DNA of 51,775 bases, from positions 1 to 51,775 of the forward strand of contig JABFRB010000025.1 of NCBI GenBank assembly GCA_013141385.1, given 5' to 3'. Below the pieces are notes generated by a model, which had not been told where the DNA came from, did not search any database, and saw only the letters and a program-made list of their open reading frames with translations. This DNA is from Bacteroidales bacterium (GTDB taxonomy: Bacteria; Bacteroidota; Bacteroidia; Bacteroidales; Tenuifilaceae). A program made the translations under genes and the position numbers. Below, piece by piece: positions 36,980-44,031 of the stretch; positions within the stretch are counted from its first letter, which is position 1, and each line of letters opens with the position of its first letter.

Positions 36980-37381
36980 ATGAAAAAAATACTCTTAACA
37001 ATGATACTGTTTTCATTGGTAGCTTACGTTTATTCGCAAAATAAAGTGATACCAAATCCTGCATCTTTGTACACCAAATTTTTAGGGTATAAAACAGAGA
37101 TGAAAACCGATAGTAATGGTAATCAGATAAAAGTATGTATTTTCCCTAATAATACTGAATGCGATGAGTGGGCGTTTTTTCGAGGTAAGTGTGGATCTGA
37201 ATTCTCCTACTGTGCGCTAAAAGGATGTGATGCAGAAACCGACTCAACTGATACTGCACAGTTTGGCGTTTGTGTATGTACTGATTCTCTAGGGAAAAAG
37301 ATGAAAATTTCTTTGCTTGATTTTATGATGCAGCATGGTGATACATTATATAAGGAGTCGAGGATAGATAGAATGAAATAG
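36980..37381 (+). CDS. Small secreted DUF333 protein, stand-alone protease pro-region homologue
   Basis: A 133-residue protein with a signal peptide (1-19, ending VYSQ) and one DUF333 module. It has seven cysteines in the mature part (VCIFPNNTEC, GKCGSE, YCALKGC, VCVC). It aligns end to end with the N-terminal pro-regions of the two papain-family proteases encoded just downstream on the other strand: PASLYTKFLGYKT with PAATYCETLGYKY, ECDEWAFFRGKCGSEFSYC with VNAWDFYKGKVAQEYSY, and KISLLDFMMQHGD with RMSLQDLMEKNGD. It therefore looks like a pro-region without its protease. A role as inhibitor or folding aid is inference. Its own terminator follows. Confidence 0.82.
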   Translation: MKKILLTMILFSLVAYVYSQNKVIPNPASLYTKFLGYKTEMKTDSNGNQIKVCIFPNNTECDEWAFFRGKCGSEFSYCALKGCDAETDSTDTAQFGVCVCTDSLGKKMKISLLDFMMQHGDTLYKESRIDRMK

Positions 37382-37406
37382 TTTAATAGACAAAATTTAA
37401 AAAATA

Positions 37407-37441
37407 GAGGGTGTCCAAATAATGGACACCCTCCTTCTTTT
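37407..37441 (+). terminator. Terminator after the small DUF333 gene
   Basis: GAGGGTGTCCA (37407-37417), loop AATAA, TGGACACCCTC (37423-37433), then a T-rich tail. A perfect 11-bp stem between convergent genes. Confidence 0.9.
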
Positions 37442-37512
37442 TATGCTATTTTGAATCTAATGTAAAGAATCCTTTTGAAGCATATTTTATATTGATAGTT
37501 ATATAATAGAAT

Positions 37513-40500
37513 TTACTGTTTTGTTACTTTCAATGAGTGATTCTTAACGCCATCGTTAACAATTATTATATATACACCATTGCTGAAATTAGAAAGATCA
37601 ATTTCCTTTGATGTCTCATCTGTAACATTTGGTCTTGAGTAAATCTTAGCTCCAGTTATTGAGTAAACATCAATTGATCTAATGCTTCCTTCGCTTCTTA
37701 CAGTAATAATACCAGTTGTAGGATTTGGGTAAGCGCTAATCATTTCGTTATTCTCAATATTTTGGTCAAGATCTTCAGTTCTTGGTGAAGCTACTCCTGA
37801 GAATGTTAACCTGATGTTGGGGCGGTAACTTGAAACAGTTGCAGTACCTGTTGGGGCTGAATTATCAGCTCTGATGTACATGTGTTTGCTTGTTGCAGAA
37901 GTGTAACGACAAGCTGGACCTGTACTTGTACCTGCACCAGTTCCTGTGTAGTTCGTCTCAACAAGAACCAATACATTGTTTGCGGTATAGTTAAATGTTG
38001 TAGATAGGCTGAATGCCTTCCATGCATTAGCTGTTGTTCCAGCCATAGTACCGTTATAAACTAATGTAGCACCTGAAATTGCTGTTGCCCATGTTGAAGC
38101 GGTAATGGTAGTAGCGGTTGTGGTCTTAATGTAAATCTTTACAGGAACGTTGTATGATAAGGTTATTGTGGGATACCACTCAACCTTATTGATTGTTCCT
38201 GTTCTACCAATTTCAGCAGATGTGTAAAGTGATGCGCTTCTCTCGTAACCGTAGTAGCAGCTTAGTGGATATCCCTGTGTTGCAGTTCCAGTACCAATTA
38301 TTACAGTTGTTCCTGTACCTAATGTTGTGAAAGAAACCTGTGAGCCGTAAGCTGTTCCGTTGGCATTAATTGCATAAGCTCTTACATAGTAAAGAGTACT
38401 TGCAGCAAGTCCTGTCATGGTTGAAGTGTATGTTCCTGTTCCTGATCCTGTTACCACCTTGCTGTTTGCAGTTGTTGGATTTGCAGTTGTTGCATAGCAA
38501 ATGCCTCTTTCAGTAACGGTTGCACCACCATCGGCAGTTACATTACCACCACTTACCGCAGAACTTGAAGTAATGCTTGTTGCGGCGGTTGTAGTAACAG
38601 TCGGGATTGTTGAGCCACCGCTTGTTATTGAAATATTATCGATATACCAGTAGTCAATCTGGTATAGGTCACCATCAGCAACAAGGGCAAAATAGGTATT
38701 GTTTGAGTTTAGATTGGTTGTAACAGGAACGCTAACGGTAGTAGCTGCAATATCGGTAGCTGTAGTTGCAACAGACCAGCTGGTATTTGTCCAAGTTGAT
38801 TTGTCATTCGATGTTTGTAGGCGTAAAGTAACACCAGTAGCATAAGCATTTAGCATGTGTTTGAATGAGAATGTTACTTGGCTAACCCCAACGGTATTAA
38901 CAGGAGCAGTAATAATTCTTGTTGTTCCTGGGTTAATTTGTTGGTATGTACACATTAATTCGTAAGCAGCACCACCTGCGGTTGCAGTATTCGACATGCT
39001 CCAACGCTCGGTAATACCTGTTCCAACATTTTGAGTTGTCCATTGGCTTGGTAGTGTTGATGCAGCAAAATTCTCGGTTACTGGGAGAGTCAATGATATT
39101 GGATTTGCTGAGGTCGTAAAAGTCATATTGAGACCATAGGTAGTACCATAGGCGTTAACAGCTTTTACCCTATAATTATAAGTGGTGCTGGCGGTCAGTC
39201 CTGTTAAAGATGCAGTAACACTGGTTGCAGATGCACCAGTTAATGTATTAGGTGTACCGTTTATAGTACTTCCGTAGCTGGTTGTTAAACCATACTCAAA
39301 AGTAACTGTGGTTGAAGCATTATTTGCATTAACTGTACCATTTAAAGTAGCAACATTATTAGTAACTCCAGATGCAGCAACTGTAGTTGCAGTTGGAGCT
39401 GCAGGAGGTGTGTTTTGATAAACCATATAGCAAACGGAGCAAGCTACACGTGCTGCTGTTACAGCAGTTCTCATATATCCACTTTCTCCCCATGTTGGAC
39501 CCCATGAATTTCTCAAAATCCAGTAGTCACCAGCAGTTGCATCGTGTCCCCAACCTACTAATGCAACAGCATGGTTAGTTGTTGTGTAATCGCAAGGACT
39601 ACCAGGGCAAGATGTTGAAGCATCTGTATATATACCCCCACTGTAGTTTTGCCATGCAGTTGAAACATAAACAGCAACATCAACAACGCCGTAGGTCATA
39701 ATGGCTGTTTTGATTGCCTCAATATCTGAACAAGGAACTCTATACCAAGCATTGAATTTAGTCTTAGGAGCATTAGTAGCTGCTGCTGGACATGTTTGAG
39801 GATCGGTAGCTGAGTATGGGAAGTATGATTCAGCTACTGTTCCAATGTCAACTAATGCTTGAAGTTCAGAATAGGTATAGTCTGCTCCGCCACATCCACC
39901 AAAATGGCTACTATATGCTGACATGGTACCTAAACACCAAACTATGTAAGATTCAGCAAAATCAGATGTGTTTGAATCATATAGACCTGTTGCAAAATTG
40001 TAAGTACCCTCAGCGCAGGCAGATGCTCCAAATGCATAGCATGATCCGCAGCTACCTTGATCGCGAACTGCTCCTATATATGAATGTCCGTTGTAGCTTC
40101 TCCAGTCGAAAGAGGTTGGATTGACTTTAGACGCAACGAAGCTAGGATTATCCTTAGCTATTTCATAAATATCCTTTCCAGGACCTCTTGTTTCCAGTTG
40201 CATTCTATCACCATTTTTTTCCATTAGATCTTGTAAGGACATTCTTTCTTTAACACCCTTAACTTCGCGAGTACAAACTGCATACTCAGTTACAAATCCG
40301 TTGATTTTTTCTGTAACTGTTTCAATTTTGTACCCTTTTTTTGCTGCATAAGAATACTCTTGTGCAACTTTACCTTTATAAAAATCCCATGCATTTACCG
40401 TTTGGCCTGATGGGAGGGTGCACATACCAACTTCATTACCTTGTTTGTCGGTTTGAATTGAGTACTTGTATCCCAAGGTTTCACAATAGGTCGCAGCCGG

Positions 40501-40578
40501 GCTTTTAAACCCTTTTTGTGCGAAAGTGGTCATACAAATCACTATGAATAGTACAACCAATTTAATTTTTTTCGTCAT
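37513..40578 (-). CDS. T9SS-secreted papain-family (C1) protease with DUF333 pro-region, paralogue 1
   Basis: A 1021-residue secreted cysteine protease. Order: signal peptide (1-20, ending TTFA), DUF333 module (about 25-125), linker, C1A papain domain (about 155-388), FN3-like domain (about 395-487), a MAM/jelly-roll-like domain with YQIDYWYIDNISI, a second FN3-like domain, another beta-rich adhesion-like domain and a type A sorting domain (ISAYPNPTTGIITV ... NGVYIIIV). Catalytic residues: Gln174 and Cys180 in DQGSCGSCYAFG, His336 in TNHAVALVGWG, Asn357 in LRNSWGPTWG. The 389-residue front is nearly the same as in the neighbour at 41122-44031, while the rear differs. Secreted by T9SS, it probably degrades external protein; the DUF333 part likely serves as pro-region. 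Confidence 0.93.
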   Translation of the reverse strand: MTKKIKLVVLFIVICMTTFAQKGFKSPAATYCETLGYKYSIQTDKQGNEVGMCTLPSGQTVNAWDFYKGKVAQEYSYAAKKGYKIETVTEKINGFVTEYAVCTREVKGVKERMSLQDLMEKNGDRMQLETRGPGKDIYEIAKDNPSFVASKVNPTSFDWRSYNGHSYIGAVRDQGSCGSCYAFGASACAEGTYNFATGLYDSNTSDFAESYIVWCLGTMSAYSSHFGGCGGADYTYSELQALVDIGTVAESYFPYSATDPQTCPAAATNAPKTKFNAWYRVPCSDIEAIKTAIMTYGVVDVAVYVSTAWQNYSGGIYTDASTSCPGSPCDYTTTNHAVALVGWGHDATAGDYWILRNSWGPTWGESGYMRTAVTAARVACSVCYMVYQNTPPAAPTATTVAASGVTNNVATLNGTVNANNASTTVTFEYGLTTSYGSTINGTPNTLTGASATSVTASLTGLTASTTYNYRVKAVNAYGTTYGLNMTFTTSANPISLTLPVTENFAASTLPSQWTTQNVGTGITERWSMSNTATAGGAAYELMCTYQQINPGTTRIITAPVNTVGVSQVTFSFKHMLNAYATGVTLRLQTSNDKSTWTNTSWSVATTATDIAATTVSVPVTTNLNSNNTYFALVADGDLYQIDYWYIDNISITSGGSTIPTVTTTAATSITSSSAVSGGNVTADGGATVTERGICYATTANPTTANSKVVTGSGTGTYTSTMTGLAASTLYYVRAYAINANGTAYGSQVSFTTLGTGTTVIIGTGTATQGYPLSCYYGYERSASLYTSAEIGRTGTINKVEWYPTITLSYNVPVKIYIKTTTATTITASTWATAISGATLVYNGTMAGTTANAWKAFSLSTTFNYTANNVLVLVETNYTGTGAGTSTGPACRYTSATSKHMYIRADNSAPTGTATVSSYRPNIRLTFSGVASPRTEDLDQNIENNEMISAYPNPTTGIITVRSEGSIRSIDVYSITGAKIYSRPNVTDETSKEIDLSNFSNGVYIIIVNDGVKNHSLKVTKQ
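39547..39657 (-). repeat. Identical 111-base block shared by the two protease genes, copy 1
   Basis: This block is identical to 43000-43110, and the surrounding catalytic-domain DNA differs only at scattered sites. It encodes the region around the catalytic histidine. Marks recent duplication or gene conversion. Confidence 0.9.
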
Positions 40579-40639
40579 AAAATATTTAGATTAAATTAAA
40601 AAATAGTGCATACAAGTTAAAATATTTATATAGCATAGC

Positions 40640-40676
40640 AAAGTGTCATAAAAAAAGATATCGAAATATTCTATAA
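40640..40676 (-). promoter_or_regulatory. Conserved upstream block of protease gene 1
   Basis: A 37-base block (AAAGTGTCATAAAAAAAGAT...) identical to 44093-44129, at the same distance (62 bases) from each start codon. A second shared stretch, AATTAAAAAATAGTG and TACAAGTTAAA, lies between the block and the start. Probably the shared promoter region, though no perfect TAnnTTTG box is seen. Confidence 0.7.
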
Positions 40677-41068
40677 TTATTTAGTAAAATTTATATTAAA
40701 TGAAGCATTAATATATTCTATTATATGTTTTTATTCAAACTTAAAAATCAATTTCAAAGAACGATATCTTTTAAATATTAGTTTGCTCAAGAATCCTTAT
40801 GAAGTATTTGCTTAGGTTTAAAGAAAAACTTGTAGAGGAAATCATTTTTTGTCAAAAGGATATTGTCCAAATCCAGATAGCAAAATTGTACTATATGTCA
40901 AATACCAAGGGGGATGCGAGAAAATCTTATAAGAATAGTAAGGAGCATTCGACTTTTAAACCCTGTGCATTCTTTATCTTAAATTCTACATCTTTAGAAG
41001 GATGATTTTTTAACAGAAATTCTATTTTTTGATCCTCTATTAATTCTGAATTTTTATTATAAAGCGAT

Positions 41069-41100
41069 AAAAAAAGAGGCTATTATTAGCCTCTTTTTTT
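41069..41100 (-). terminator. Terminator of protease gene 2
   Basis: An A-tract, GAGGCTA, loop TTAT, TAGCCTC and a T-tract, symmetric. It lies 22 bases after the stop of the minus-strand gene that ends at 41122. Confidence 0.88.
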
Positions 41101-41121
41101 ATTTAAGATGATATCAGATTG

Positions 41122-44031
41122 CTATTTTTTAACAAATCTGGTTGTAAGAGGTCCTTTTGAATCATCAACAGAAAGGATGTAAACACCAGAAGGTAATTCT
41201 GAAACATTAATTGATTTTTCAGTTTTATCAATGTTTTCAGTTTTTACAAGTGAACCATTTGTATTGTAGATTTTAACCACACCAATCATAGCACCATTGC
41301 TGAGTTTAACATTGATAGTGTTATTGCTTGGATTGGGATAAACAGATATACTTGTAGGTAGCTCTTCAGCATCAATGTTGTCACTTTTAGGCGTTGCAGT
41401 GCCTAGTATATTTACAGTGTAATCCTCAACTTCGCCATAGCTGAAAGTTTCACATGCGGTTGGAGCTGAATTATATTTCATCGTCACGCGCATTCTAGTT
41501 GAACCTAATGTTGCAGTTGTTGGAACTGTGAAGGCTTTGCTAAGAGTTGCGCTACTTTTCGATGAACCAGAACTGATTAGTTCATTACTTTCAAATGTTC
41601 CATCCTGATCGTAGTCAATCCAGATATACCAGTATTCAGTGCGTTTAGTGCTTTTATAACCTGCACTGTAGTAAATAGTATAACTTGTTCCTCTGCCTAA
41701 ATTTGTACTTAAGTTTGTAAAGTTACCGTAACCTGCATTAGCAGCAGTAACATTGTTGATTGTATTCAGCCTTACTAAATCAATCCATTCATTAGTAACA
41801 TTATTACCCTTTGATGCACAATAAGTGATAGATGTTAAGGTTGTTACGTTAATGATATTACTAGCAGCAGAAACATTACCAGCTGCATCTTTAGCTTGAA
41901 CATAGAATGAATAGGCTGTTGCAGCTGTTAAACCAGTTACGATATATGATGTAGTGGCTGATGTTGCAAGATAAGTACCATTCTCATACACATCGTATCC
42001 AGTAACACCAAAATTATCTGTAGAAGCAGTCCAACCTAATGTAACAGAATTGGTGGTTATATTTGAAGAGGTAAGATTACTTGGAGCAGTTGGTGCTTGA
42101 GTATCTGGTCCACCTTCGGCAATTACTACCGTATAATCTTCAACCTCACCATATGAAAATGTTTCACATTCAGTTTGTGCAGAATTATACTTCATAGATA
42201 CGCGCATTGTTGTTGTTTTAGGCGTTGTGCCAGAAGGAACTGTTAATGTGCCGGTAACAGTAGTGCTACTAAGAGCACCGGCATCAAAAACTAGCTCACC
42301 AGTATCTGCGAAATCGCCATCATAGTTGAGGTCAATCCATATTTTCCAGTATTCATTATATGTTGTACTTGCAAATGCGGGGGTTAGTGATACGCTATAA
42401 CTACTACCAGCGATTACATTTAAAGTTTTGTTAGTAAAGTCGGTATAACCAGCTGCTCCAGATGAGTTTGATAACGACCCAACTATAACGTTCGATATCC
42501 ATTCGTATGAGAAATTACTACCCATTGATGTACAATAAACAATTGGAGCTATCCCTGTTGTTGTGAAAGTATCCTGACTTCCATAGCTTGTTCCTTTAGC
42601 ATTTGTAGCGTAAGCACGTACATAATAGGTTGTACCTGAAGCTAGACCATCCATTGTTAATGTATATGATCCCGTAAGAACAGTTGGAGAAGTAGCCACT
42701 ACTGTACCTGATACAACTGTTGGATTGGCTGTTTTTGAGTATACAAGCCCACTATTTATAATGGTTGCACCTCCATTTGAAGTGATATTTCCACCACAAA
42801 TGGCAGAATTATCAGCTATTGATGATACGCTATTAGTTGTTACTGTAGGAGCGGTTGTTCCATCATCTTGATAAACCATATAGCAAACTGAGCAAGCAAC
42901 GCGAGCTGCTGTTACAGCAGTTCTCATATATCCGCCTTCACCCCATGTTGGACCCCATGAGTTTCTTAATATCCAGTAGTCACCAGCAGTTGCATCGTTT
43001 CCCCAACCTACTAATGCAACAGCATGGTTAGTTGTTGTGTAATCGCAAGGACTACCAGGGCAAGATGTTGAAGCATCTGTATATATACCCCCACTGTAGT
43101 TTTGCCATGCGGTTGAAACATAAACAGCAACATCAACAACGCCGTAGGTCATAATAGCCGTTTTTATTGCCTCAATATCTGAACAGGGAACCCTATACCA
43201 AGCATTAAATTGAGTTTTAGGTGCCGAAGCGGTGGATGATGGACATGGTTGACCAGCAGTTGGAGTATATGGAAAGTATGATTCAGGTATAGTTCCGACA
43301 TCAACCAATGCTTGTAATTCAGAATAGGTATAATCGGCACCGTTACAACCACTAAAATGGCTAGAATATGCAGGTAAAGTACTCAAACAAAATGCGATGT
43401 AAGATTCTGAAAAATCTGATGTGTTTGAATCGTATAGACCTGTTGCAAAATTGTAAGTACCCTCAGCGCAAGCAGAGGCTCCAAATGCATAGCATGATCC
43501 GCAGCTACCTTGATCGCGAACTGCTCCTATATACGAATGTCCGTTGTAGCTTCTCCAGTCGAAAGAGGTTGGATTGGCTTTAGACGCAACGAAACTAGGA
43601 TTATCCTTAGCTATTTCATAAATATCCTTTCCCGAGCCCCTAGTTTCTAGTTGCATTTTATCACCATTCTTTTCCATCAATTCCTGTAGAGATAGTTTTT
43701 CTACAACTCCTTTTACTTCGCGAGTACATACAGCTTTTTCGGTTACAAATCCATCGATTTTTTCTGTAACTGTTTCAATTTTGTATCCCTTTTTTGCAGC
43801 GTAAGAATATTCTTTTCCAACCTTGCCCTTATAGAAGTCCCAAGCATTTACTTGTTCCCCATTAGGTAGGGTACACAAACCAATTTCATTCCCTTTCTTA
43901 TCGCTTTGAACGGAATAGCGATAACCCATGAATTCACAATAGGTTGCAGCTGGGTTTTTAAACCCTTTTTGTGCAAATGTGGTCATACAAATCACTGTGA
44001 AAAGTATAACCATTTTAACTTTTTTAGTCAT
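41122..44031 (-). CDS. T9SS-secreted papain-family (C1) protease with DUF333 pro-region, paralogue 2
   Basis: A 969-residue paralogue of the protease at 37513-40578. Signal peptide (1-20), DUF333 module, C1A domain with the same catalytic positions (Gln174, Cys180, His336, Asn357), then a different rear: FN3-like domain (about 393-490), GEVED domain with ETFSYGEVEDYTV, FN3 domain (APSNLTSSNITTNSVTLGW), a second GEVED domain with the same ETFSYGEVEDYTV motif and a type A sorting domain (ISVYPNPSNNTINV ... SGVYILSV). GEVED domains occur in secreted adhesins and hydrolases. So the two enzymes share a catalytic engine and are directed to different surfaces or partners by their C-terminal modules (inference). 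Confidence 0.93.
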   Translation of the reverse strand: MTKKVKMVILFTVICMTTFAQKGFKNPAATYCEFMGYRYSVQSDKKGNEIGLCTLPNGEQVNAWDFYKGKVGKEYSYAAKKGYKIETVTEKIDGFVTEKAVCTREVKGVVEKLSLQELMEKNGDKMQLETRGSGKDIYEIAKDNPSFVASKANPTSFDWRSYNGHSYIGAVRDQGSCGSCYAFGASACAEGTYNFATGLYDSNTSDFSESYIAFCLSTLPAYSSHFSGCNGADYTYSELQALVDVGTIPESYFPYTPTAGQPCPSSTASAPKTQFNAWYRVPCSDIEAIKTAIMTYGVVDVAVYVSTAWQNYSGGIYTDASTSCPGSPCDYTTTNHAVALVGWGNDATAGDYWILRNSWGPTWGEGGYMRTAVTAARVACSVCYMVYQDDGTTAPTVTTNSVSSIADNSAICGGNITSNGGATIINSGLVYSKTANPTVVSGTVVATSPTVLTGSYTLTMDGLASGTTYYVRAYATNAKGTSYGSQDTFTTTGIAPIVYCTSMGSNFSYEWISNVIVGSLSNSSGAAGYTDFTNKTLNVIAGSSYSVSLTPAFASTTYNEYWKIWIDLNYDGDFADTGELVFDAGALSSTTVTGTLTVPSGTTPKTTTMRVSMKYNSAQTECETFSYGEVEDYTVVIAEGGPDTQAPTAPSNLTSSNITTNSVTLGWTASTDNFGVTGYDVYENGTYLATSATTSYIVTGLTAATAYSFYVQAKDAAGNVSAASNIINVTTLTSITYCASKGNNVTNEWIDLVRLNTINNVTAANAGYGNFTNLSTNLGRGTSYTIYYSAGYKSTKRTEYWYIWIDYDQDGTFESNELISSGSSKSSATLSKAFTVPTTATLGSTRMRVTMKYNSAPTACETFSYGEVEDYTVNILGTATPKSDNIDAEELPTSISVYPNPSNNTINVKLSNGAMIGVVKIYNTNGSLVKTENIDKTEKSINVSELPSGVYILSVDDSKGPLTTRFVKK
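43000..43110 (-). repeat. Identical 111-base block shared by the two protease genes, copy 2
   Basis: Identical to 39547-39657; see that entry. The similarity covers roughly the first 1,160 bases of both genes and stops where the C-terminal modules begin. Confidence 0.9.

Follow-up and report, generated by a model that had tools for sequence, protein, structure and literature searches.

A free DUF333 protein encoded beside DUF333-fronted papain-family proteases in a Bacteroidales bacterium: a candidate propeptide-type inhibitor

Results

A free DUF333 protein next to two proteases with the same module

The window analysed here is the entire contig JABFRB010000025.1 (51,775 nucleotides) of the 5.5 Mb genome of a Bacteroidales bacterium of the family Tenuifilaceae (assembly GCA_013141385.1). 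It encodes a small secreted protein with a DUF333 domain, referred to below as the free DUF333 protein, and next to it two papain-family (Peptidase_C1, or C1) proteases that carry the same module in front of the catalytic domain (Table 1). DUF333 is an uncharacterised domain that occurs widely in both bacteria and archaea, and searches of the open-licence PubMed Central (PMC) literature turned up no function for DUF333 or PF03891. All three proteins belong to PF03891, with 63.4 bits for the free protein and 56.7 and 56.8 bits for the proteases (cut-off 25), and PF03891 matches occur in the genome at exactly these three places.

A preliminary description of the locus had reported that the free, secreted protein of 133 residues aligns with the N-termini of both proteases. 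The open reading frames are as described there, and the alignment was confirmed, with 44 of 131 residues identical to protease 1 (34%, E 1e-22) and 46 of 131 identical to protease 2 (35%, E 6e-24). Both alignments span residues 1 to 128, signal peptide included. The claimed full-length match holds for the free protein, which is covered end to end, but not for the whole pro-region: the match ends soon after an MxxxGD motif, and most of the linker of about 27 residues leading to the mature enzyme is absent from the free protein. All five free proteins in our genome samples stop within a few to about twenty residues past this motif.

In the proteases, the DUF333 module lies between the signal peptide and the apparent start of the mature papain domain (PTSFDWR), and C1 begins at residue 154, after the linker that follows MxxxGD. 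The C1 domains score 142 and 141 bits in Pfam. Neither Inhibitor_I29 nor Inhibitor_I42 was among the Pfam matches of the three window proteins at E values up to 1; because no I29 propeptide is listed, DUF333 appears to fill the propeptide position. Both proteases bear a cargo signal of the type IX secretion system (T9SS; Por_Secre_tail / type A sorting domain), and the free protein has none. The signal peptides of the three proteins were assigned by reading the sequence. The two proteases are 86% identical over their first 390 residues and almost the same in parts of C1, but their C-terminal parts differ (fn3-like versus fn3 plus GEVED domains), which suggests a duplication with tail exchange or gene conversion.

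Table 1. Features of the free DUF333 gene and its neighbours in the window
Feature	Position	Strand	Basis
Free DUF333 protein, 133 aa, 7 Cys, signal peptide (by reading), without T9SS tail	36980..37381	+	Open reading frame, Pfam, alignments
DUF333 core of free protein, residues 24-69	37049..37186	+	Pfam PF03891, 63.4 bits, cut-off 25
C-terminal extension of free protein, about residues 72-126, common to protease pro-regions	37193..37357	+	Alignment, hidden Markov model
Inverted repeat GAGGGTGTCC/GGACACCCTC in the gap between the convergent genes, probably a shared terminator	37407..37433	.	By eye
Protease 1, 1021 aa: signal peptide, DUF333 pro-region, Peptidase_C1, fn3-like part (below Pfam cut-off), T9SS tail	37513..40578	-	Open reading frame, Pfam
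Protease 1 pro-region homologous to free protein: DUF333 core (40372-40506) and extension	40201..40515	-	Pfam, alignments
Protease 1 Peptidase_C1 domain, with QGSCGSCY, NHAVALVGWG and NSWG segments	39433..40119	-	Pfam
Protease 1 Por_Secre_tail	37537..37731	-	48.1 bits, cut-off 27
Protease 2, 969 aa: signal peptide, DUF333 pro-region, Peptidase_C1, fn3, two GEVED, T9SS tail	41122..44031	-	Open reading frame, Pfam
Protease 2 DUF333 core, residues 25-69	43825..43959	-	56.8 bits
Protease 2 Peptidase_C1 domain	42892..43572	-	Pfam
Protease 2 Por_Secre_tail	41137..41343	-	53.1 bits, cut-off 27

The additional cysteines ascribed to the free protein are in part special to it. C78, C83 and C100 are found in the free form only, but the other four of the seven are not: C53, C61 and C71 are ordinary DUF333 cysteines that also occur in other phyla, and C53 and C98 are matched by cysteines in the neighbouring proteases. 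The free proteins contain seven cysteines in the window, G001 and G002, six in G007 and eight in G384 (G numbers denote sampled genomes), and three of the five likely have an unpaired thiol. Named relatives of the free protein come from Bacteroidales metagenome-assembled genomes, at 85% and 60% identity. When the free protein and two profiles were searched against PDB sequences, all matches were weak and unrelated.

Distribution and conserved pairing

Relatives were sought in a first sample of 99 genomes, this one included (8 with DUF333), in an order sample of 393 Bacteroidales genomes and in 395 genomes drawn across the phylum. Within the family, the free gene was found in this genome (G000), in G001 and G002 of the same genus, and in G007 of another genus. 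It lies tail to tail with a DUF333-C1 protease gene in all four, with a gap to the protease 3' end of 131 bp in the window, 79 bp in G001, 131 bp in G002 and 30 bp in G007. A lack of conserved neighbourhood in related genomes had been set beforehand as a result that would refute the proposed role of the free protein as an inhibitor or folding aid; the recurrence of the pair in four of four genomes, one in another genus, did not refute it. Among the 27 family genomes examined, four have both genes, three have the protease only (G008, G011 and G014), 20 have neither and none has the free gene only.

The order sample contained DUF333 in 15 of 393 genomes, always in long frames except for the free form of the window and a frame of 149 residues in G384, and the phylum sample contained it in this genome only. 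Together, the samples of 99 and 393 genomes gave 19 genomes with DUF333, of which 18 have a fused protease, five a free form and four both. The C1 domain of the DUF333 proteases was assigned by Pfam for the window, G001, G002, G007, G008, G011 and G048, and from the catalytic motif in the remaining genomes. A search of viral contigs yielded no relative of the combined pro-region and C1 sequence; one viral C1-like locus, at 32% identity, proved to be misaligned and was dropped from the alignment.

In the genus of the window, the pair is flanked by an amylase-type gene and a flavoprotein gene, and in G007 by pyruvate formate-lyase-type genes and typA (all names read from the sequence and not taken from a family search), so the pair has outlived a change of surroundings. 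The inverted repeat between the converging genes (Table 1) has a similar counterpart in G002 and a shorter one in G001, and was not seen in the 30-bp gap of G007.

DUF333-C1 loci were also inspected for regulators, in 16 loci (L numbers) fetched with their flanks, one of which (L038) has almost no flank. A response-regulator gene directly adjoins the protease gene in seven of them (L019, L020, L021, L037, L039, L041 and L042). The five of these regulators that were scanned are all of the LytTR type by Pfam, and those of L019 and L021 were judged by similar sequence; in L020, a Y_Y_Y sensor kinase lies next to the LytTR response regulator. None of the four free-DUF333 loci has a regulator directly beside it, although L018 does contain a similar sensor kinase at a distance of about 3.8 kb. 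Loci may use either transcriptional control or a free inhibitor.

A shared extension and a distinct, constrained free form

Alignment of the five free proteins with 16 fused pro-regions revealed that the shared region has two parts: the DUF333 core as defined by Pfam, of about 46 residues, and, C-terminal to it, an extension of about 55 residues that ends in MxxxGD. The 16 were drawn from 22 fused DUF333 frames and used for the alignment, the tree and the extension model; the frames of G014 (a near copy of G008), G048, G122, G215, G222 and G368 were left out. A hidden Markov model (HMM) of the extension, built from the 16 fused rows only, matched all five free proteins with E values of 1e-14 to 4e-7 (referred to a database of 1063 sequences); for comparison, none of 1000 shuffled versions of the free proteins did better than 0.72. 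The same model matched none of 22 DUF333 proteins of other phyla within E 10. These 22 proteins, from Chloroflexota, Actinomycetota, archaea and Patescibacteria-type lineages, were drawn by DNA patterns from the free proteins and are thus biased to the CxFxxxxECDEW form. The reverse HMM, built from the five free extensions, matched all 16 fused rows (E 5e-19 to 3e-6) but was less selective, as discussed below. On balance, the kinship of the free protein is with the protease pro-regions specifically, and not just with DUF333 at large.

A comparison of the extension with the DUF333 repeat gave an hhalign probability of 87% for the free rows and 62% for all rows, and none of 200 column shuffles scored as high in either case, weakly supporting the view that the extension is a second, decayed DUF333 repeat. 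Tandem DUF333 repeats occur in proteins of Chloroflexota and one actinomycete (L051, L053, L054, L056, L058 and L060), which look like lipoproteins by reading.

In an unrooted tree of the 21 pro-region rows, the five free forms fall on one side of a branch with support 99/97, apart from the 16 fused pro-regions; four of the 18 inner branches are strongly supported, and G384 is on a long branch. This branch rejects the possibility that the free gene is a recent copy of its neighbour's pro-region. The ratio of nonsynonymous to synonymous substitution rates (dN/dS) of the free gene between the window and G002 is 0.11, next to 0.095 for the protease and 0.10 for the amylase. Against G001 it is 0.18, with dS near saturation, and the three computable comparisons range from 0.11 to 0.21; dS was saturated in the three comparisons with G007, for which no ratio is given. 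The free gene is under purifying selection. Its product evolves faster than C1: between the window and G001, identity is 57% for the free protein, 86% for C1 and 70% for the pro-region.

Chagasin-fronted C1 proteases in the same order

Chagasin (family I42) is a natural inhibitor of papain-family peptidases (PMC2607524). In the two samples, 11 frames of at least 300 residues score above the I42 cut-off, and 10 of these are C1 proteases in which I42 sits in the N-terminal slot that DUF333 occupies in the window proteases; the exception is in G058, and one sub-cut-off chagasin frame (G164 C218) stands outside the count. The ten proteases come from G004, G005, G038, G115 (two), G164 (four) and G329 (loci L070, L091, L093 and L120-L125), and G004 shares its genus with the window. 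They resemble the DUF333 proteases in having a C1 enzyme, a small domain in the pro-region slot and, in seven of ten, a recognised T9SS tail, and the spacing to C1 is 27-39 residues for I42 and about 27 for DUF333. Most I42 matches in the samples are short free frames. Unlike the DUF333 pair in the window, however, the ten I42-C1 proteases have no separate free I42 match on their own contigs.

The ten I42-C1 domains form a clade of their own in the C1 tree (100/99), and 17 of 18 DUF333-C1 domains group together (86/93), with that of G048 outside at weak support (85/41). This tree included 18 of the 22 DUF333 frames; its branches are long and its bootstrap has not settled. A swap of chagasin and DUF333 inside one C1 clade was considered and is unsupported, as the I42 clade is separate; the two groupings therefore look like a parallel design. 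The chagasin-fronted enzymes suggest that C1 proteases preceded by a small inhibitor domain may have evolved repeatedly within the order. Searches of the open-licence PMC literature turned up no paper on C1 proteases with I42 in the pro-region position.

A further C1-related locus of the same genome (L071, G000:C11:1-7000) contains four tandem genes for small C1-like proteins of 274-280 residues, the first of which was run against Pfam. Three have a GSCVAWG segment and one has SSVAWG, without the cysteine, so at least one of them may be inactive.

Discussion

The best explanation for the homology, the shared extension, the presence and absence of sorting signals, the pairing within the family and the purifying selection is, in our judgement, that the free DUF333 protein works in trans as a propeptide-type inhibitor, with the periplasm as its probable site of action, and we lean modestly towards this reading. 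That the protein inhibits the protease encoded next to it is likewise judged slightly more likely than not. The DUF333 module, core plus extension, would then be a pro-region that keeps C1 inactive during periplasmic folding and type IX crossing of the outer membrane, a role suggested by its position and by the chagasin-fronted proteases. Indirect support for inhibition comes from chagasin, which fills this slot in further C1 proteases of the order, and from published cases of stand-alone propeptide inhibitors. The free copy, with an export signal and no T9SS tail, would stay in the periplasm, where it could bind a catalytic domain that has lost its pro-region too early; by replacing the lost pro-domain it would protect the cell envelope. 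As it carries no linker to the enzyme, it would be without the segment that has to be cleaved upon activation, and the additional cysteines may give it more rigidity than the built-in copy has.

Stand-alone propeptide inhibitors are a known kind. The preliminary description had presented the arrangement as not known to be described for DUF333, and searches of the open-licence PMC literature turned up no DUF333 stand-alone propeptide inhibitor paired with T9SS C1 proteases. Inhibitors of this kind show homology to a protease pro-region, as the free protein does, and are encoded beside the cognate protease, as in four of four family genomes but not in G384. The comparisons below refer to excerpts of the cited papers. 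Spi of Streptococcus pyogenes, called a propeptide analogue, is a small protein encoded adjacent to the cysteine protease SpeB and co-transcribed with it (PMC2873492). The window resembles this system in that a small propeptide-like protein is encoded next to a cysteine protease; the likeness is one of description and not of sequence comparison, and SpeB is a C10 enzyme, unlike the C1 enzymes here. The host of Spi and SpeB is Gram-positive, and that of the window is a T9SS bacterium. SUB1-ProM of Plasmodium is also a stand-alone propeptide-like protein, encoded at a syntenic locus beside proteases and acting as a potent, selective inhibitor (PMC6993865), but of a subtilisin (serine) protease and with an unrelated propeptide.

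Closer in enzyme type are the I29 propeptide-like inhibitors CTLA-2alpha, crammer and BCPI, which are related to papain-family pro-regions, exist as free proteins and inhibit C1 enzymes (PMC4089206); they differ from the free protein in family, given the lack of I29 matches at E up to 1 in the three window proteins. Propeptides of papain-like enzymes have been described as enzyme-attached inhibitors (PMC7863939). One cysteine of CTLA-2alpha is essential for inhibition (PMC4089206), and a parallel with the likely unpaired thiol of some free DUF333 proteins would be speculation. Among T9SS cargo, the gingipains (PMC5053529) have propeptides that inhibit their own enzymes (PMC3677877). Other Bacteroidota proteases are paired by neighbourhood with small inhibitors or predicted inhibitors: in Bacteroides fragilis, bfi is reported to be co-transcribed with bfp1 and bfp4 (PMC2873492), and the potempins of Tannerella are lipoproteins encoded directly upstream of the KLIKK proteases (PMC7296668). 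Bfi has no significant identity to the propeptides of known proteases (PMC2873492), and neither Bfi nor the potempins are described as pro-region copies in the excerpts of these papers (PMC2873492, PMC7296668).

Several observations weigh against the inhibitor reading. G384, from another family, has a free copy (48% identity), but its genome encodes no DUF333 protease, and the C1 proteins it does have are of a different type. DUF333 is also absent from all 15 of its listed congeners, so the copy in G384 looks like a recently acquired orphan. Of the 18 genomes that encode a DUF333-C1 protease, 14 lack the free protein, and in G002 the second protease stands without a free-gene neighbour; the free protein is therefore not obligatory. 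It is neither needed by the protease nor strictly tied to it. The two genes converge in the window, G001, G002 and G007 and so do not form one operon, unlike the genes of Spi and SpeB or bfi with bfp1 and bfp4, which are reported as co-transcribed. The reverse HMM also matched nine of the 22 other-phyla DUF333 proteins (E 5e-7 to 0.01), a range that takes in the weakest fused row (2.8e-6), likely because the extension weakly resembles a second DUF333 repeat; the extension may thus not be wholly private to the protease pro-regions and their free relatives. Protease or inhibitor domains were looked for in the chains of the 22 proteins, and none was recognised. Any inhibition would have to be exerted by the globular module as such, in the manner of chagasin, and this is the weakest point of the inhibitor reading.

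A rival reading is that DUF333 is a targeting or binding module for an envelope or substrate partner common to the free protein and the proteases, their pairing reflecting a shared substrate or site. The other-phyla proteins, which are secreted or lipoprotein-like, and the orphan in G384 would fit such a role. We consider it rather unlikely, however, since the fused-row HMM confines the extension to protease-type DUF333 and its free relatives (the reverse HMM being less clear-cut), DUF333 takes the place of a removable pro-region where the accessory domains here are C-terminal, and chagasin holds that position in further Bacteroidales C1 proteases. The free module could also help the catalytic domain to fold in the periplasm without being a lasting inhibitor. 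Such a folding aid in trans fits the same homology and gene pairing, the study of the gingipains allows for propeptide-mediated folding (PMC3677877), and CTLA-2alpha both inhibits and stabilises its enzyme (PMC4089206). Each protease, however, already has its own copy in cis, which makes a second aid seem redundant, and most protease-bearing genomes do without the free copy; we regard a mere folding aid as unlikely. Although the tandem proteases demonstrate that duplication occurs at this locus, it is very improbable that the free gene is a functionless, drifting leftover of a protease gene duplication, given its separate branch, its low dN/dS, its retention in two genera of the family and its single occurrence in another family.

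On the inhibitor reading, the pairing predicts that the mature free protein of about 113 residues inhibits the catalytic domain encoded next door. DUF333 might even be a general papain-family inhibitor module, used as a C1 pro-domain and as a free guard in Bacteroidales and, in organisms with the short secreted form only, as a stand-alone inhibitor of cysteine proteases, whether foreign or their own, but this wider proposal is doubtful. If the inhibitor reading is true, a new propeptide or inhibitor family would be named, and T9SS bacteria that export papain-like enzymes may guard their periplasm by keeping there an additional, separate copy of the safety catch.

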